From: Massilia atriviolacea
GTDB taxonomy: Bacteria > Pseudomonadota > Gammaproteobacteria > Burkholderiales > Burkholderiaceae_D
Assembly: GCF_003953935.1 (NCBI RefSeq)
Contig: NZ_RXLQ01000005.1
Location: 302,625-366,624, forward strand
Direction of reading: 5' to 3'
Length of the DNA stretch: 64,000 bases
Made by a program: the position numbers and the translations under genes
Notes under the pieces: generated by a model
Databases searched by the model: none
Told to the model about the DNA's origin: nothing
What the model saw: the letters and a program-made list of their open reading frames with translations, nothing else
Part shown: piece after piece, positions 45,436 through 53,977 of the stretch
Layout: each line of letters starts with the position of its first letter
How positions within the stretch are numbered: position 1 is the first letter of the stretch

Positions 45436-45819
45436 TTACTTTTTTTCCTCATCCAGGATCGCCTGGATCTCTGCCCGTTCGCGCGCGCTGACATGCCCGC
45501 GCAGGGCGGCCAGCACCAGTTCCTTGCCCGAGCCCGAAAACGCCTTGTGGATCAGCTCCTTGATCAGGCTGGTCTGCAGCGAATCCTGCGGCTGCGCCGG
45601 CGCGTACACATGCGCGCGGGCGCGCTCGTCGCGGGTCAGCAAGCCCTTGGTGTGCATTAATTGCAGCAGGCGCAGCACGGTCGCGTACGCCATGTCGGGA
45701 CGGCTGGCCACGGCCGCCTGGTGCACCTGCCTGGCGCTGGCCGGTCCGAGTTGCCACAACAGGCGCAGCATCTCCAGTTCCGCTGCGGTGGGCTTGGGGA
45801 TGGCGGTCGGCTCTGGCAT
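45436..45819 (-). CDS. BlaI/MecI/CopY-family transcriptional repressor
   Basis: A 127-residue winged-helix protein with LEMLRLLWQLGPASARQV and MAYATVLRLLQLMHTKGLLTRDERARAHVYAP, the BlaI-type DNA-binding domain. The C-terminal dimerisation/proteolysis region is followed by SARERAEIQAILDEEKK. In the classical systems a membrane M56 sensor protease (BlaR) cleaves it; no such gene is adjacent, so it is an orphan. A CTAGA/TCTAG palindrome 26 nt upstream of its start is a likely autoregulatory operator. The target genes are unknown. Confidence 0.87.
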   Translation of the reverse strand: MPEPTAIPKPTAAELEMLRLLWQLGPASARQVHQAAVASRPDMAYATVLRLLQLMHTKGLLTRDERARAHVYAPAQPQDSLQTSLIKELIHKAFSGSGKELVLAALRGHVSARERAEIQAILDEEKK

Positions 45820-45877: not shown

Positions 45878-46558
45878 TCAGATCTCCGACCACATGCGCA
45901 GCAGGTTGTGATAGTGCCCGGTCAGGCTGACCGTTTCCTCGGTGTCGCCGAGTTTGGCGCGCAGGCGCACGATGGTCTGGTCGAGTTCGAGCAGCATGGC
46001 GCGCCGGCCGTCGTCGCGCACCATGCTCTGGACCCAGAAGAATGAGCAGACGCGGCTGCCGCGCGTGACCGGCTCGACCTTGTGCACGCTCGACGAGGGA
46101 TACACGATCATGTCGCCGGCCGGCAGTTTGACTTCGTGCACGCCGTAGGTATCGTTGACGATCAGTTCGCCGCCATCGTAGTCCTCGGGCTCGCACAGGA
46201 ACAGGGTGCAGGAGACATCGGTGCGCAGCGGCAGGGCGCTGCCAAGCACGTTGCGCACCGCGCCGTCCACGTGCGCGCCGTAGTGCCCGCCGCCGGTGTA
46301 GCGGTTGAACAGCGGCGGCACGGTGCGCAGGGGCAGGGCGGCGGCGAAGTAGAGGGGATTGGCGGCCAGCGCGGCCAGGATGACGCGGCCGAGTTCGGCG
46401 GCGAGGGGGCCGTCGGTGGGCAGTTGCTGGTTGTGCTTGACCTGGGCGCCCTGGGCGCCGACCGTGGCGCGGCCATCGGTCCAGTCGGCGTCGTCCAGCG
46501 CGCGCCGCATGGCGGCGACCTGGTCGGGGGTGAGCACTTGGGGAATGTGGAGCATCAT
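45878..46558 (-). CDS. PKHD-type Fe(II)/2OG hydroxylase (PiuC/YbiX family)
   Basis: A 226-residue protein with the PKHD motif: His96 and Asp98 (GAHVDGAV), His159 ([10 protein letters not shown]) and Arg169 ([12 protein letters not shown]). Family members lie beside TonB siderophore receptors and are iron-regulated; here the receptor is directly upstream (46727-49018). The most likely role is modifying an iron-uptake component or substrate. It is separated from the receptor by a palindromic element and a five-copy octamer repeat, so their co-expression is uncertain. Confidence 0.92.
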
Positions 46559-46726: not shown

Positions 46727-49018
46727 TCAAAAGCGGAAGTTCGCGGTCAGGCTGGCCGAGCGCGGCGCGCCCGGGGTGTAGCGGTAACCGCTCTTGTTGA
46801 TCTGGGCAATGTACTCCTTGTCCGCCAGATTGTACAAGTTCAGCTGCAGGTCGACGTTCTTGCTCACGCTGTACGATGCCATCGCATCGACCACCCAGTA
46901 CGCGTCGGCGAAGGCCGGGGTGCCGACCGCGCCGTCGGTGCCGCGCAGCAGCTTGCCGACGTAACGCGCGCCGGCGCCGATTTTCAGGCCCATCGGCAGG
47001 GTGTACGAGGTCCACGAGGTGAAGGCATCCTTCGGCGTGTAATTCAGGTTGTTGATCCCGCTGGCGGTGACGACCTTGCCGTTGCTCACTTCCGTATCCA
47101 TGCGGGCATAGCCGGCGCTGACCAGCCAGTTGCGGGCCACTTCGCCGGTCACGCCCAGCTCGATCCCCTTCACCTGCTTGCGTCCGGTCTGGTAATACAG
47201 CAGGTCCACCGGATCTTGCTCCAGCTCATTCTTGACGGTGGTCTTGTACAGCGCTGCCGTGAGCGACAGCTTTTGCTTGAGGAAATCCCACTTGGTGCCG
47301 ATTTCGGTGGTGGTCGATTGCTGCGGATCGTATTTCGGGTTCGAAGCGCTGTTGGCGGACGTCGACAGCGTGAAGTTGGTCCCCGGCGGCTGCTTCGACG
47401 TGGCGATCAGGGCGTACACGCTGCTGTCGGCGGTCGGCTTGTACAGCGCCGAGATCTTGCCGTTGCCGACCGTGTCGCTCAGTTTCAGGGTGGTCGGCAC
47501 CAGGGTACCCACCGGCAAGGTCGGGTTGGCGGCCGCGGTCGACAGGCTGGTGGCGTGGTAGTTGACGCTGAAGTGGTCCATGCGCCCGCCGACGTTGAAA
47601 ATCCACTTGTCGCCCAGCTTGATGGTATCGAACAGGTACACGCTCTGGGTATCGACCTTGGCATTGGTGCCGACGCCGTTGCGCACCAGGTTCAGGCCGG
47701 TAATCGCGGAGTACGGATTGGGGGCGTACAGCGAGTCGACCGCCATCGTGCCGGCGCCGGTGTAGCTGTAGTTGGTCTGCTCTTCGCTGGTCAGCTCCAG
47801 GCCGCCCACGAAGGTGTGCTTCATGCCGCCCAGGTCCAGGTTCACGGTCGCCACGCTCTGGTTGGTCAGGATGGTGTTGGTCTGGTCCTTGACGGTGCGG
47901 TTGCCGCGCGTGATGGTCCAGGTCGACAGATCGTTGACGTTCGGCGTTTTCAGGTTGGCGCTGGTGCCCATGAAGGCGGTCAGCAGGTAATCCTGCGCCG
48001 TCTTGCCGTAGCGCGTGGTGTTCTGCAGCTTGACGGCCGGCGAGAAATCATGCTCGACCTTGGCGGTGAACATGTCGGCCTTGACATTGTCGTAATCGCT
48101 GGCCGAACCGTAGAAATTCTCCGGGTTCACGCGCGGCGCGGTGGTGAGGAAGGCGCGCGCGTCCGGGCTCTTGTAGCCGGGCAGGCCGATGGTCGGCACG
48201 CCGCCGGTCGGAATATTGTCCTGGTCCACGTGCAGATAGTTCAGGTAGACGCGGGTAGGGCTGTTCAGGCCGAAGGCGAGCGAGGGCGCCAGCGCCCAGC
48301 GCTTGTTCTTGACCACGTCGCGGCCCGGGGTGCCGCTGTCCTGCGCCAGCGCGTTCAGGCGCAGGGCGATGCCCTTTTCGGCGCTCAGGATGGTCGCGTA
48401 ATCGACCGTGGCGCGCTTTTGCTTGCCGCTGCCGGCCACCACCGAGCCGGTGGTGCCGGACTCCATCAGCGCCTGCTTGGTCACCATGTTGACCGAGCCG
48501 GTCGGCGACGAGCGCCCGGTGTCGGTGCCGGCCGGGCCCTTGAGCACGTCGAGCTGCTCGACGTTGAACACGTCGCGCGAGATCGAGCCGATGTCGCGCA
48601 CGCCGTCGACAAAAATGCTGGTCGACGAATCGAAGCCGCGCATGTAGATGGTGTCGCCGGTGGTGGTGTTGCCGTTTTCGCCGAGGAAGAAGGTGCCCAC
48701 GCCCGGGGTGTTGCGCAGCGCTTCGGTCAGGGTCACCGCGCCTTGCTGGGCGATCAGTTCCTTCTTGATCACGGTCACCGTTTGCGCGGTGTTGAGCAGG
48801 GTTTCGGTGTACTTGGGCGAGGCGGCGCGGTCGGCCTTGAAGTCGTTGGTGCTTTCCTCGGCGGTTTTGCTGACGACCTGGACTTCGGGCAGGGTCTTCG
48901 CCTGAGGAGCGTCGGCGGCGGCATGCGCCGCGACCGGGACCAGCAGCGCGGCCAGTGCGGCGCTCATGTGTTGATTGAAACGGGATTGCGCGTGCTTGCG
49001 GCTTTTGATCGGGGCCAT
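46727..49018 (-). CDS. TonB-dependent siderophore receptor (catecholate type, Fiu-like)
   Basis: The ATG at 49018 (MAPIKSRKHAQSRFN) gives 763 residues with a signal peptide ending AAHAA. A TonB-box-like EVQVVSKT is followed by a plug domain (TLTEALRNTPGVGTFFLGENG, YMRGFDSSTSIFVDGVRDIG, NVEQLDVLKGPAGTDTGR) and a 22-strand beta barrel ending SASLTANFRF, with the terminal Phe for outer-membrane insertion. The sequence is closest in feel to the catecholate receptors Fiu/CirA. A Fur-like box lies 82-101 bp upstream. It sits next to the PKHD hydroxylase, the usual Fiu neighbour. Confidence 0.93.
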   Translation of the reverse strand: MAPIKSRKHAQSRFNQHMSAALAALLVPVAAHAAADAPQAKTLPEVQVVSKTAEESTNDFKADRAASPKYTETLLNTAQTVTVIKKELIAQQGAVTLTEALRNTPGVGTFFLGENGNTTTGDTIYMRGFDSSTSIFVDGVRDIGSISRDVFNVEQLDVLKGPAGTDTGRSSPTGSVNMVTKQALMESGTTGSVVAGSGKQKRATVDYATILSAEKGIALRLNALAQDSGTPGRDVVKNKRWALAPSLAFGLNSPTRVYLNYLHVDQDNIPTGGVPTIGLPGYKSPDARAFLTTAPRVNPENFYGSASDYDNVKADMFTAKVEHDFSPAVKLQNTTRYGKTAQDYLLTAFMGTSANLKTPNVNDLSTWTITRGNRTVKDQTNTILTNQSVATVNLDLGGMKHTFVGGLELTSEEQTNYSYTGAGTMAVDSLYAPNPYSAITGLNLVRNGVGTNAKVDTQSVYLFDTIKLGDKWIFNVGGRMDHFSVNYHATSLSTAAANPTLPVGTLVPTTLKLSDTVGNGKISALYKPTADSSVYALIATSKQPPGTNFTLSTSANSASNPKYDPQQSTTTEIGTKWDFLKQKLSLTAALYKTTVKNELEQDPVDLLYYQTGRKQVKGIELGVTGEVARNWLVSAGYARMDTEVSNGKVVTASGINNLNYTPKDAFTSWTSYTLPMGLKIGAGARYVGKLLRGTDGAVGTPAFADAYWVVDAMASYSVSKNVDLQLNLYNLADKEYIAQINKSGYRYTPGAPRSASLTANFRF

Positions 49019-49100
49019 CTGCTTCTCTTCTTCGACGTGGTTAGGTTGGACATAAATTGCCAACAATCTAGTCATTGTAGGAGAAATGTAAAAGCATGTA

Positions 49101-49119
49101 AATGAGAATCGTTATCAAC
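49101..49119 (-). promoter_or_regulatory. Fur-box-like site upstream of the siderophore receptor
   Basis: AATGAGAATCGTTATCAAC resembles the 19-bp Fur consensus GATAATGATAATCATTATC in its ATGAGAAT...ATTATC-like halves, with several mismatches. It is 83-101 bp before the receptor start. Iron repression is the expected effect. Confidence 0.65.
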
Positions 49120-49192
49120 ACGATTCGTATTCGTATTTGGTGAAATCGGCAAGCTTATGCAATTGGCATAGTTTCGGACGTAAAAAGTGTCA

Positions 49193-50536
49193 TCAGTACA
49201 CATCACGCCGATAGCGTCCGCTCTCGTCGAGCATGGCGACGGTGTCGCTGCCGAGCACCGTTTCCAGCGTCGCGTGCACGGCCCCGGCCATGCCTTGCAG
49301 GCTGCCGCAGACATAGATCGCGGCGCCGTCCGCCACCCACGCGCGCAGCCGGGCGGCTTGCGCGGCGAGCGCATGCTGCACATAGCGTTCGCTGCCGCCG
49401 TCGCGCGAAAACACCAGGCTGACGGCCTCCAGCATGCCGGCCTGGCGCCAGGCGGCGATATCGGCCGCGCAAAAATCGTCATGCGCGGCCTGGCGCTCGC
49501 CGAACACCAGCCAGTTGCGCGCCCGGCCTGCGTCGGCGCGGCTTTGCAGGTGCGCGCGCAGGCCGCCGATGCCGGTGCCGTTGCCGATCAAGATCAGCGG
49601 CCGCGCGGCATTCTCGCCGATCCGGAAGCGGCTGTGCTGGCGCACGCGCAGCAGCAGCGGCGCATCCTCCTGCGCCTCGCGGCACAGCCAGCCCGAGGCC
49701 ATGCCCAGGGTGCCGTCCTCGCGCGCGTGCAGGCGCACCAGCAGCGACAGGCGCCCTTCAGCCATGGTCGAGGCGATCGAATACTCGCGCGGATAGTCCG
49801 GGTCGCCCGGCGCGCTCACCTGCACCAGGTCGCCCGCTTCCCATGCGGGCAGGGGGCCGGCGGCCGGCAGCAGGTCGATGCGGTACACCGGCGCGCCGGC
49901 GCTGCCGGGATTGAGCAGGCGGCGCGCTGCGATGCGCCAGTCGCCGTAGCCTGGGGCGCTCCAGTCGGGGGCGTCGCTGGTGCCGGCCAGGTGGCTCAGG
50001 TGATGCTGCCACGCCTCGATGGCGGCGCTGCGGCCGCGGTCCACTTCGACCCGCTCGAACAGCGCCTGCGCGCCGCACTGCCGCAAGGCGGCGTCCAGGC
50101 GGCGCCCGAAGCCGCAGTAATTGGCGTAGCTGCTGTCGCCCAGCGCCAGCACGGCGTAGTGCAGCTGGCCGAGCGCCATGCCCGGCTGGGCGAGCAGGCG
50201 CGCCAGGCGCGCCGCGCTGTCGGGCGCATCGCCCTCGCCGTAGGTGCTGGCGATGAACAGGATGCGCGCCGCGCCGCGCAAGGTGGCCTGGTCCAGGTGC
50301 TCGACGCTGATTGCGCGCGCCGCCAGGCCGCCGGTGCGCAGCGTCGCCACCGTGTGTTCGGCCAGCGCTTCGCCGGTGCCGGTCTGGCTGGCATAGGCCA
50401 CCAGCCAGTCGGCCTTGCCGCCGCCGCTGTCCTTGTGCACGGCGCGGCGCGCGCGCAGCAGGGCCAGGCACATGCCCGCGTAGGCCGCCACGGCGGCGGC
50501 GGCGCCGCCCCAGCGGACCGGATCGACAGTGATCAT
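49193..50536 (-). CDS. Membrane-anchored flavodoxin/FAD/NADP reductase (sulfite-reductase-flavoprotein-like)
   Basis: The ATG at 50536 overlaps the apbE stop (ATGA), giving 447 residues. A single N-terminal membrane helix (about 10-28) is followed by a flavodoxin domain (VAYASQTGTGEALAEHT, STYGEGDAPD, LALGDSSYANYCGFG). After this comes an FAD-binding part (DPDYPREYSIAST) and an NADP-binding part (LILIGNGTGIGGLRAHL, YVCGSLQGMAGAVH). It would take electrons from NADPH through FAD and FMN. As last gene of the Fur-controlled operon, it probably feeds the PepSY/DUF2271 partners. Confidence 0.88.
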   Translation of the reverse strand: MITVDPVRWGGAAAAVAAYAGMCLALLRARRAVHKDSGGGKADWLVAYASQTGTGEALAEHTVATLRTGGLAARAISVEHLDQATLRGAARILFIASTYGEGDAPDSAARLARLLAQPGMALGQLHYAVLALGDSSYANYCGFGRRLDAALRQCGAQALFERVEVDRGRSAAIEAWQHHLSHLAGTSDAPDWSAPGYGDWRIAARRLLNPGSAGAPVYRIDLLPAAGPLPAWEAGDLVQVSAPGDPDYPREYSIASTMAEGRLSLLVRLHAREDGTLGMASGWLCREAQEDAPLLLRVRQHSRFRIGENAARPLILIGNGTGIGGLRAHLQSRADAGRARNWLVFGERQAAHDDFCAADIAAWRQAGMLEAVSLVFSRDGGSERYVQHALAAQAARLRAWVADGAAIYVCGSLQGMAGAVHATLETVLGSDTVAMLDESGRYRRDVY

Positions 50537-51543
50537 TGGAGTAATTCCTCGTAGGCGGTGGAGACGACTTCGCGCAGCGCGCCTTGATGGCGCAGCAGGA
50601 AGCGCGCCGCCACGTTCTGGCGTTCGGCCAGCGCCAGTCCTTGTTCGGGCCCGAGCACCGACAGCGCGGTCGAGAGGGCATCGGCGGCCATGCATTCGGC
50701 ATGCAGCACCGTGACCGAGGCCACGTCGTTGCGGATCGGCGCGCCCGTGCGCGGGTCGAGCGTGTGCGAGGCGCGCCGGCCCCCATGCTCGAAGTAGCGC
50801 CGGTAGTCGCCCGAGGTGGCGATGGCCAGCCCGTGCAGCGCCACCGTGGTCGGCGCCGCGCCGTCGCCCGCGCCCGGCACGCCTTCCAGCGCGACCCACC
50901 ACGGCTGGCCGTCGGCCTTGGTGCCGGCGCCGCGCAATTCGCCGCCGATCTCCACCAGGTAGTGGTGCAGGCCCTGCGCTTCCAGGCAGCGCGCCAGCAG
51001 GTCGACCGCATAGCCCTTGGCCACCGAGGACAGGTCGATCTGCACGCCGCCCGGCTGCAGCGCGCGCCGGCTGGCGCGGTCCAGTTGCAGGCGCTGGCGG
51101 TCGGCGCGCGCCACGATGGCTTGCGTGGCCGCCGGCAGCGGCGCATAAAAATTGGCTTCGTTATAGCGCTGGCGCGCGCCGAAACCCCAGGCGTTGACCA
51201 GGGCGCCGGCGCAGGGATCGTAGGCGCCGCCGCTGGCCTCGGCCACCTCCAGCGCGTAGCTGAGCACCGTGAAGAAGGCGTCAGGCAGGCGGTGCCAGTT
51301 GCCCGCCGGGGCGCTGTTGAAGCGGCTCAGGTTGGAGTCGCGATCCCAGTGGCTCATTTGCGCCACCACCAGGTCCAGCTGGCGCTGCAGGGATTCCAGC
51401 ACGGCCGGCCCGGCGCCCGGCGGCGCCATCACGCGCGCCGACCAGCTGGTGCCCATGCTGCTGCCGCCCAGGTCGAGCAGGGTGCTGGCGCGCGGCGGCA
51501 GGGCCGGCGCGATCGCGAGGGGGACGAGAACGCGGCGCCGCAT
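50533..51543 (-). CDS. apbE: FAD:protein FMN transferase
   Basis: A 336-residue ApbE. The N-terminus is basic then hydrophobic (MRRRVLVPLAIAPALPP), consistent with export to the periplasm. Family segments are GSSMGTSWSARV, DAFFTVLSYALEVAEASGGAYDP, QIDLSSVAKGYAVD, SGDYRRYF and SHTLDPRTGAPI, and the catalytic Asp/Thr metal region follows. It covalently attaches FMN to Ser/Thr in (D)xx(S/T)GA(T/S) motifs. The operon encodes such a target, the DUF2271 protein with DGVSGAT. The start is directly next to the DUF4198 stop. Confidence 0.94.
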   Translation of the reverse strand: MRRRVLVPLAIAPALPPRASTLLDLGGSSMGTSWSARVMAPPGAGPAVLESLQRQLDLVVAQMSHWDRDSNLSRFNSAPAGNWHRLPDAFFTVLSYALEVAEASGGAYDPCAGALVNAWGFGARQRYNEANFYAPLPAATQAIVARADRQRLQLDRASRRALQPGGVQIDLSSVAKGYAVDLLARCLEAQGLHHYLVEIGGELRGAGTKADGQPWWVALEGVPGAGDGAAPTTVALHGLAIATSGDYRRYFEHGGRRASHTLDPRTGAPIRNDVASVTVLHAECMAADALSTALSVLGPEQGLALAERQNVAARFLLRHQGALREVVSTAYEELLQ

Positions 51544-52362
51544 TTACTCTGGCAGCACTTCGAGCGTGGCGGCGTAGCTGTAGCGGCGCGTCACGGCCGG
51601 TGCGTCGGCCGGGGCCGCGCCTTTGGCCTGGGCCGCCGGGAAGCCGGCGTTGAGCCAGTACATGCCGGGGGCCGGCAGGGTCACCGCCACCTCGCCCTTG
51701 GCGTCGGTTTCCAGGCGCACTTCGCCGAGCACGCCGCGATAGCGCACGCCGCCCGGAATCAGGCTGAAGGCGAACTTCGGCAGCGGCTTGCCGTCGAGCT
51801 GGAAGCGCCATCTGGCCGTTTCGCCGGCGCGCAGGTCGGTCGGATTGGTCAGCGGGATCATCTCCAGGCCCACGCCGCTCGGCTTGAAGGCGCCGTCGCT
51901 GGTCTTGTTGGCGCTCACGAACGTCTCCAGGCGCTGGTGGGCGTAGGTGGTTTTCAGCTCCTGCGCGTCGCTCGGCACTTCCTTGGCAAAGGCGTCCTCG
52001 CTGCCGCGGAAACGCTTGGCTTCTCCGGCCTTGTCCTTGTAGCTGGCCATCACGTTGCGGCTGACGAGACTGATCTTGTAGGTGCCGCTCTTGGCCATCT
52101 TCAGGTCGAAGGTGGCGCGCTGCCTGCCGGTGTAGCCGGCCGGCGCCGGCGTGACCACGCCATCCGGATCGGTGACGGTGGCCGCGTCGAGCCTGAGGGC
52201 GACGTGTTCGATGTCGAACAGGCCTTCCGAAATGGCGCCGTCGATGGTCACCCACGGTTCCTTCGCTTCGACCATGGTCGCTTGCGGGTACAGCCAGCCG
52301 CGGTGCGCGGAGGCGCTCAGCGACAGGGCGGCCAGGCCGAGGGCAAGCAGGGTCTTTTTCAT
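51544..52362 (-). CDS. DUF4198-family periplasmic protein
   Basis: The ATG at 52362 gives 272 residues with a signal peptide (MKKTLLALGLAALSLSASA) followed by HRGWLYPQAT; an ATG at 52377 and a TTG at 52386 are alternatives, and no clear ribosome-binding site distinguishes them. The mature protein is beta-rich, with GYTGRQRATFDLKMAKSGTYKIS and LAPGxYWLNAGF-like segments typical of DUF4198. The family often lies near TonB receptors and metal uptake genes. It may bind metal or a metal complex in the periplasm; this is inference. Confidence 0.8.
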   Translation of the reverse strand: MKKTLLALGLAALSLSASAHRGWLYPQATMVEAKEPWVTIDGAISEGLFDIEHVALRLDAATVTDPDGVVTPAPAGYTGRQRATFDLKMAKSGTYKISLVSRNVMASYKDKAGEAKRFRGSEDAFAKEVPSDAQELKTTYAHQRLETFVSANKTSDGAFKPSGVGLEMIPLTNPTDLRAGETARWRFQLDGKPLPKFAFSLIPGGVRYRGVLGEVRLETDAKGEVAVTLPAPGMYWLNAGFPAAQAKGAAPADAPAVTRRYSYAATLEVLPE

Positions 52363-52386
52363 CGTGAAGTTGGTCATGGTCGTCAA

Positions 52387-52902
52387 TTAAGGGGTGATCT
52401 GGAGGGAAACCGCGCCGAGTTCTTCCTTGCCGCGCGCGCTGAAGGTTTGCTTGCCCTTGAGCGGCAGGCTGAAGGGAACGCGCACCAGTTCACGCCCGCC
52501 CGATTCGCGCGCCGCTTCGATCACCAGCTTGTAGTCGCCGGCCGGCAGCTTGTCGATGCCGGTGCGCGCCGGTCCGAAGCTGATGCTCTGCTCGCCCGCC
52601 GAGCGCGTCGCGCCGCTCACGCCGTCCAGCGGCAGTTCCACGTCGCGGCCCGCCTTGCGCCACCAGGTGCGCAGGTCCTTGACCCACTTGGTGCCGGCGT
52701 TGTCCTTCTTCTTGACGTCGTACAGCACCGACAGGTTGGCCGCCACGCTCTGGTCGGCGCGCTCGAGCCACATGGCCACGTACGGACGGTGGTATTCGGC
52801 CACGTTCAGTTGCGGGATTTCGAACTTGACGGCGAGGTCGGCGCCGACGGCCCAGCCGCTCAGCATGGGGAGGGTAAGGGCAAGCGTGTGTTGTAGTTTC
52901 AT
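52387..52902 (-). CDS. DUF2271 periplasmic flavinylated protein
   Basis: The ATG at 52902 gives 171 residues. The signal peptide spans about residues 1-20 (ending AVGA). DUF2271 features include EYHRPYVAMWLERAD and VLYDVKKKDNAGTKWVKDLRTWWRK. Residues 93-99, DGVSGATR, match the ApbE flavinylation consensus Dxx(S/T)GA(T/S), with Thr99 as the predicted FMN attachment site. It is therefore a likely covalent flavoprotein electron carrier in the periplasm. It follows the PepSY gene by 11 nt and precedes DUF4198. Confidence 0.86.
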   Translation of the reverse strand: MKLQHTLALTLPMLSGWAVGADLAVKFEIPQLNVAEYHRPYVAMWLERADQSVAANLSVLYDVKKKDNAGTKWVKDLRTWWRKAGRDVELPLDGVSGATRSAGEQSISFGPARTGIDKLPAGDYKLVIEAARESGGRELVRVPFSLPLKGKQTFSARGKEELGAVSLQITP

Positions 52903-52913
52903 CGTGGGGTCAG

Positions 52914-53552
52914 TCAGTGGGTAAACAAGAGGGCGAGCAGCAGCGGCATGAGGATGCCGGCGCCGATCACCGGCCAGGTGGACGGGCGGTTGGCGGCGTG
53001 CAGTTTCATGATCAGGAAACCGGTCAGCGAAAACACCACGCAGGCCACCGCAAAAATATCGATGAACCAGCCCCACACCGGGCCCGCGTTGCGGCCCTTG
53101 TGCAGGTCGTTGAGCCAGGACACCATGCCGCGGTCGGTCTTTTCGTATTCGGCGGCGCCGTCGACGGCAATCCTCAGCCAGGCGTCGCCGCCCGGACGCG
53201 GCAGCGCCACATAGGCGTCTTCCTCGCTCCATTCGGCGTCGACGGCGCCGAGGTCGAGGCCGAACTCGCGGTCGGCCCAGCTGGCCACGCGCGGCGGCAG
53301 CGGCGCGCGCGCGTCGGCGTGCTCGCTGGCCGCCTGCTCCAGGTCGCGCAACAGGGGCGCGGGCAGGGTGGCCTTGCGCTTGCTGACCGCCGGCCTGGCC
53401 TCGATCTGGCTGGCGTGGTTGAGCGTGATGCCGGTGATGCTGAACAGGAGCATGCCCATCAGGCACAAGGCCGAACTGATCCAGTGCCAGCGGTGCAGGT
53501 TCTTGAGCCAGGCGGCGCGGCTGGCGCTGGGGAGCGTGGCAGGGGAGGACAT
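52914..53552 (-). CDS. PepSY-associated transmembrane protein
   Basis: ACGGAAG before the ATG at 53552 sets the start. The 212-residue protein has a membrane helix near residues 24-46 (LHRWHWISSALCLMGMLLFSITG, the PepSY-TM opening), then a periplasmic PepSY-like loop (about 50-155). Two more helices follow, near 160-182 and 192-210. PepSY-TM proteins in flavinylation operons pass electrons across the inner membrane. It is first in the five-gene operon and directly follows a perfect Fur-like palindrome. Confidence 0.87.
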   Translation of the reverse strand: MSSPATLPSASRAAWLKNLHRWHWISSALCLMGMLLFSITGITLNHASQIEARPAVSKRKATLPAPLLRDLEQAASEHADARAPLPPRVASWADREFGLDLGAVDAEWSEEDAYVALPRPGGDAWLRIAVDGAAEYEKTDRGMVSWLNDLHKGRNAGPVWGWFIDIFAVACVVFSLTGFLIMKLHAANRPSTWPVIGAGILMPLLLALLFTH

Positions 53553-53579
53553 CGGTACTTCCGTCAAGGAGCTAAACGC

Positions 53580-53600
53580 AAATGATAACTATTATCATTT
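53580..53600 (-). promoter_or_regulatory. Fur-box-like palindrome upstream of the flavinylation operon
   Basis: AAATGATAA-CTA-TTATCATTT (53580-53600) is a perfect 9-3-9 inverted repeat closely matching the Fur consensus. It is 28-48 bp before the PepSY start, positioned to block the promoter when iron is plentiful. Confidence 0.85.
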
Positions 53601-53977
53601 GCTCGGTCAATGGCGCCATCGGACATTTACAATACGCAACAATCGCTTGCCTCCAAGCACAGTGGACCCGGTTTGTCCCTGCGCTGGCGCAAGAAAACGC
53701 GCTGCTAACTAGCGATAAAATTGTGATGTGTCAATTTATTGGCGCCAAAGTCGTGGTTTTGGCATCGCCCAATCAAAAAAGATGATCGGCAACTTTTTTC
53801 GCGAGGTGGAATGTTAGGCTACAATACGCGTGCTATTCTTCCGACCTCGTAAGAATGCTGCGAGCTTTACAAGTCCTTCCCCACAACTTGATGTGCAATC
53901 CGCTAACCGGTCAGGCCGTGTCGCGGAAGGTTAGATTAACCCGCCAAACTCGCGAAGCGCGAAGAAAGGTGAGCAAG
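53601..53977. other. Gap and odhA leader region
   Basis: No gene is supported between the iron operon and odhA. TACAAT at about 53820-53825 is a possible -10 element, which would leave a 5' leader of about 150 nt. A start near 53855 is open in frame but is leader sequence. No riboswitch-like structure was recognised. Confidence 0.4.

Follow-up and report, generated by a model that had tools for sequence, protein, structure and literature searches.

A probable Fur-repressed PepSY-like flavinylation operon in Massilia atriviolacea with the gene order of Caulobacter CC3059-3063

Gene content of the locus

We analyzed a 64,000-nucleotide stretch of the Massilia atriviolacea genome (contig NZ_RXLQ01000005.1, positions 302,625 to 366,624; hereafter the window), in which five nearly gapless genes on the minus strand share one predicted promoter. 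In order, they encode a PepSY-like membrane protein, a DUF2271 protein, a DUF4198 protein, ApbE (a flavin adenine dinucleotide (FAD):protein flavin mononucleotide (FMN) transferase) and a membrane-anchored flavodoxin/nicotinamide adenine dinucleotide phosphate (NADP) reductase (Table 1). The DUF4198 and ApbE genes abut, and the ApbE and reductase genes overlap by 4 bases. This order had been proposed in an earlier reading of the bare sequence (the original prediction), and each of its five assignments is backed by Pfam. Our leading interpretation, with a probability of about 0.7, is that the locus belongs to the PepSY-like flavinylation operons of Meheust et al. (2021), is repressed by Fur and has the gene content and order of Caulobacter crescentus CC3059-3063. 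Such an iron-regulated set has been described before; the one reported here is a further copy, from a soil bacterium, and its main interpretation was anticipated in print.

Table 1. Features of the locus, in window coordinates
Feature	Position	Strand	Details
Fur-like 9-3-9 palindrome AAATGATAA-CTA-TTATCATTT	53580..53600	.	exact
Predicted sigma-70 promoter	53582..53610	-	-35 TTGACC 53605-53610; spacer 17; -10 TATCAT 53582-53587
PepSY-like membrane protein	52914..53552	-	PF16357, 253 bits; three predicted helices; ATG start, alternative TTG 53567
DUF2271, predicted periplasmic flavinylation substrate, 171 aa	52387..52902	-	PF10029, 161 bits
DGVSGAT motif (residues 93-99)	52606..52626	-	acceptor Thr99 codon 52606-52608
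DUF4198, secreted	51544..52377	-	PF10670, 161 bits; predicted mature N-terminal His25 codon 52303-52305
ApbE, FAD:protein FMN transferase	50533..51543	-	PF02424, 269 bits
Membrane-anchored flavodoxin/NADP reductase resembling sulfite reductase but lacking the CysJ connecting stretch	49193..50536	-	Flavodoxin_1, 91 bits; NAD_binding_1, 30 bits
Fiu-type catecholate receptor	46727..49075	-	NF007349, 1005 bits (cut-off 686); start perhaps 49018
PiuC/YbiX-type Fe(II) dioxygenase, adjoins Fiu	45878..46558	-	NF003975, 349 bits (cut-off 180)
Penicillinase_R (BlaI-type) repressor gene, adjoins PiuC	45436..45819	-	Pfam search

Searches covered the whole genome (7,355,158 bases, 80 contigs), a close set of 61 loci from close relatives and a phylum set of 44 Pseudomonadota loci. 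In the phylum search, 65 of 299 genomes matched, 54 of them over the cut-off; the set itself comprises matches above 100 bits, one per genome and with the M. atriviolacea genome excluded. Within the close set, L068 lacks a DUF4198 match, and the conservation counts do not include L097 (Massilia sp. H-1), where sucA, a Fiu-like gene and the genes of the operon appear in several fragments; the fragmentation may reflect sequencing errors rather than decay. Alignments A3 and A4 comprise part of the rows only. Shuffled controls were single-base for the Fur box count in the 61 loci and dinucleotide-preserving for the window and phylum-wide counts.

Flavinylation target, membrane protein and reductase

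The DUF2271 protein, whose closest named relatives are from Massilia (97-98% identity), carries DGVSGAT at exactly the residues originally given for it. The strict motif [ST]GA[ST] occurs in 60 of the 61 close-set rows (window included), the exception being L093 with TSAT. The original prediction also had ApbE act on this protein, which is demonstrated for a homologue: DUF2271 of Amantichitinum ursilacus is flavinylated by its own ApbE, and flavinylation is lost upon exchange of Thr for Ala (PMC8238504). By analogy, ApbE is likely to attach FMN to Thr99 here. The genome encodes a single DUF2271, two further ApbE genes and one FMN_bind protein. Among distant DUF2271 proteins, the Gly is often Ser and the Ala often Pro, while the acceptor is Thr in 42 and Ser in 1 of 43 rows (window included); many of them (L148, L149, L152-L154 and others) read TGPT, SGPT or SSAT with the acceptor Thr retained.

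All 17 genomes with a locus lacking ApbE encode ApbE elsewhere, so the notion that DUF2271 might occur in genomes devoid of ApbE was abandoned. Eight phylum loci (L181, L183-L189) have PepSY-DUF2271-DUF4198 with both ApbE and reductase absent within about 7 kb, and ApbE elsewhere in the genome.

For the PepSY gene, we read ATG 53552 as a likelier start than TTG 53567, as GGAAG precedes the ATG. Besides PF16357, the protein matches PF03929 (PepSY_TM; 45.7 bits against a cut-off of 28.8), both above their cut-offs. Its structural model (mean predicted local distance difference test score, 94.5) has three long helices around the PepSY domain. Numbered from the TTG start, His28, His51 and His156 are conserved in 38, 41 and 45 of 45 rows, respectively, and His25, His190 and His217 less so (28, 28 and 35 of 45). 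Their position on the helices would place the histidines close to the two faces of the membrane, which would suit a pair of hemes and agrees with the predicted role of PepSY as a transmembrane electron carrier.

The reductase has one hydrophobic segment, starting at about residue 9 and followed by RARRAVHK, so that under the positive-inside rule its flavin domains would be cytoplasmic. Residues 246-447 match the CysJ structure 6efv (E 5e-42). REYS, GTGIGG, SRDGG and a C-terminal RDVY are all present, and we take these to function in FAD and NADPH binding. The flavodoxin/FAD/NADP architecture originally assigned needs a correction: the Pfam search detects Flavodoxin_1 and NAD_binding_1 but, at E ≤ 0.001, no FAD-binding domain of its own, although the REYS stretch is there. 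Like CysJ, the protein combines a flavodoxin half with an FAD/NADP half, but it is membrane-anchored, and the stretch linking its halves is presumably some 100 residues shorter. With 225.8 bits for TIGR01931 against a curated cut-off of 668.15, the protein does not qualify as a CysJ. A sulfite-reductase-like gene is found near PepSY in 27 of the 44 Pseudomonadota loci, one of which (L177) has the flavodoxin half alone, and is also annotated in the Caulobacter operon; the view that a separate electron donor of this type is unusual was therefore rejected. In two loci (L179 and L180), the reductase directly follows PepSY with no DUF2271 or DUF4198 found nearby, perhaps constituting a minimal electron path.

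The fold of the DUF4198 protein matches metal-bound DUF4198 structures, released in 2025, in which the relatives hold divalent metals (Zn, Cu, Co or Ni). A-x-A immediately precedes His25, where cleavage is predicted, and the resulting mature N-terminal His is present in 42 of 42 distant-set rows (window included) and, by eye, in 58 of 60 close-set rows. A search for partner histidines found His at position 58 in 29 of 42 rows, at position 147 in the window alone (1 of 42) and at position 178 in 39 of 42, the window having Asn there. From residue 25 to residue 58, the window protein contains no further His; the sequence search did not reach structure 9gcb, IsDUF4198 of Ideonella sakaiensis, in which His18 is the second ligand. 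The window protein has both the DUF4198 fold and the predicted mature N-terminal His of the IsDUF4198 type. The segment aligned with His142 of Zcp (9mhi to 9mho; known here from PDB titles alone) has no His in the window. Literature searches returned nothing under PDB code 9MHI and, for Zcp/DUF4198, mostly unrelated papers. The most likely role of DUF4198 is that of an auxiliary protein that binds metal in the periplasm.

Two further observations concern DUF4198. In five of the eight loci without ApbE and reductase, Lys replaces the aligned His58. Moreover, the M. atriviolacea genome holds a second, weaker DUF4198 match (49 bits; L117, G000:C1:295568-296104), on the same strand as a PepSY_TM match (L103, G000:C1:294002-295102) and about 0.5 kb from it.

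Fur box, promoter and neighboring receptor

The perfect 9-3-9 Fur-like palindrome originally noted ahead of the operon is exact, and the predicted -10 sits within it. The promoter has 10 of 12 consensus bases, and the region contains four promoter-like sites compared with a shuffle mean of 0.5. Allowing up to 3 mismatches, the palindrome matches once in the window and never in 100 shuffles; genome-wide there are seven such sites, with a single exact copy, and none for the reversed control pattern. The six further sites carry 2-3 mismatches. Four of these adjoin likely iron genes, judged by eye from open reading frames (ORFs): two FecI-like sigma factors, a TonB-receptor-like protein and a bfd-like ferredoxin, the last with a feoA-like ORF opposite and about 1.7 kb from the FeoB match. 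ORF reading gave no placement for the remaining two. The classical 19-base Fur consensus has no match with up to 3 mismatches in the window; the box fits the 9-3-9 form. In the close set, all 18 defined bases are kept in 38 of 61 loci and at least 15 in 59, while the best of 1220 shuffles reached 14.

In lacZ fusion and gel-shift experiments, the CC3059-3063 promoter was shown to depend on iron and fur and to be bound by Fur, and the genes of this operon are 12- to 51-fold up among iron-responsive, Fur-regulated genes (PMC3751524). Its first gene has been called PepSY-family, and insertions are less fit with ethylenediaminetetraacetic acid (EDTA) (PMC11870441). Fur control, as originally proposed, agrees with a box that overlaps the predicted -10 and is kept in close relatives, and with Fur repression of the Caulobacter operon; the site here is identified by sequence and repression is suggested by the Caulobacter case. 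The Fur box is secure for the Massilia lineage; beyond it, the connection to Fur is drawn from published work.

The TonB receptor invoked by the original prediction is present and of the Fiu type, but lies outside the interval that had been described. It is separated from the operon by 117 bases and has promoter-like sites of its own, so the Fiu gene is probably a separate transcription unit; a Fur-like site with 14 of 18 bases (49100-49120) precedes it. Fiu-like receptors occur within 7 kb of PepSY in 24 of 44 phylum loci compared with 4 of 40 control stretches (Fisher p = 1.8e-5). The controls were of like length and from the same genomes, covering 40 of the 44 (G238, G353, G427 and G377 left out). 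Similarity to Fiu was the sole criterion for counting a receptor, so that distant TonB receptors may escape in cases and controls alike. Of the 61 close-set loci, all have the PepSY-DUF2271 pair, 14 have a Fiu orthologue within reach and 28 have any Fiu-like receptor; as 11 of these loci are shorter than 16 kb, a receptor may lie past the contig ends.

Proposed mechanism, alternatives and known systems

The operon very probably carries electrons over the inner membrane to a flavin-bearing protein for ferric iron reduction and uptake. Under iron scarcity, Fur would dissociate from the box at the -10, allowing transcription of the operon, and ApbE would flavinylate DUF2271 in the periplasm. NADPH electrons would enter the flavins of the anchored reductase at the cytoplasmic face, cross the membrane by way of hemes ligated by PepSY histidines and arrive at the DUF2271 FMN. 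On the periplasmic side, this FMN would reduce Fe(III) or a ferric chelate. Fe(II) would then probably enter via FeoB, which the Massilia genome encodes. We further suggest, tentatively and as the less likely case, that DUF4198 is a periplasmic Fe(II) acceptor, its N-terminal His helping to bind Fe(II) from the DUF2271 FMN before hand-over to a permease such as FeoB. If so, the operon would be a reduce-and-hand-over relay and not a bare reductase.

Several observations weigh against this interpretation. Across the phylum, the strict flavinylation motif is kept in just 18 of 42 distant loci, and its retention does not clearly depend on an ApbE close by (11 of 27 loci having ApbE, 7 of 15 without). 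The exact Fur box likewise fades, with 9 of 44 loci scoring at least 14 where the shuffle maximum is 13. The PepSY model has no convincing PDB match, and FoxB is not among the matches listed, a result that speaks neither for nor against a FoxB-like fold.

The closeness of the receptor raises the possibility that the operon encodes a ferrisiderophore reductase reserved for Fiu-delivered catecholate and forms one uptake unit with PiuC. Fiu and PiuC directly follow the operon on the same strand, and Fiu has its own Fur-like site; yet the gap and separate promoter-like sites before Fiu, and the rarity of a Fiu orthologue in close loci that invariably keep the PepSY-DUF2271 pair, make this unlikely. 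The original claim that the neighboring receptor delivers the substrate is accordingly weak: Fiu-like receptors are enriched, but the Fiu pairing is local, and a general periplasmic ferric reductase is therefore favored over a catecholate-dedicated one. The metals held by solved DUF4198 relatives, and the link of other PepSY_TM proteins to copper (PMC13038864, PMC12914433), would suit a reductase for a metal other than iron (nickel, copper or zinc) or for some general redox function in the periplasm. We regard this as very improbable given the Fur box, the Fur repression and EDTA phenotype in Caulobacter, and the enrichment of Fiu-like receptors.

FoxB reportedly needs no flavinylated partner, and PepSY might similarly reduce iron directly, with flavinylated DUF2271 as a side branch or redox sensor. 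The two loci with PepSY and reductase only would fit such a role, as would the description of FoxB as a siderophore reductase with two hemes (PMC13001220). With DUF2271 present in 42 of 44 loci and its acceptor Thr nearly invariant, however, there is little to recommend this explanation. As a whole, the interpretation first given, electron transfer through PepSY to flavinylated DUF2271 for iron reduction, was largely right, but its scheme is largely in print and it missed the metal-binding relatives of DUF4198. The electron path of such systems has been proposed in the literature; the Massilia operon offers a clean, compact example of a widespread iron-reduction system in a culturable environmental genus, and makes the role of DUF4198 easy to test.

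Among known systems, FoxB of Pseudomonas aeruginosa and HiuB of Caulobacter belong to the PepSY family and carry hemes on His ligands; both are proposed to reduce ferrisiderophores (PMC13001220). The Massilia PepSY is likewise a PepSY-family membrane protein with a PepSY_TM domain, but it is of the short PF16357 type, is predicted to work with a flavinylated protein and is accompanied by a gene for its own electron donor. The PepSY-like systems of Meheust et al. (2021) number 3220 clusters in their count, of which 2833 include DUF2271, 1500 DUF4198 and 231 a TonB gene; the authors proposed a role in iron reduction, and 1077 PepSY-like genes have a NAD-binding domain (PMC8238504). Our locus shares with these the PepSY-like protein, here with three helices, ApbE within the cluster, DUF2271 with [ST]GA[ST] as substrate, and DUF4198; it differs in that the reductase is a separate gene and not a NAD-binding domain on PepSY. 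The same five-gene order is found in 16 of 44 Pseudomonadota loci. A close counterpart is Caulobacter CC3059-3063 (CCNA_03155-03159), annotated in order as transporter, DUF2271, DUF4198, ApbE and sulfite reductase flavoprotein (PMC3751524). The four Pfam families searched were matched in the Caulobacter control genome. Compared by annotation, and by the operon genes alone (Fiu and PiuC adjoin in Massilia), the two operons have the same gene content and order and a Fur site over the promoter.

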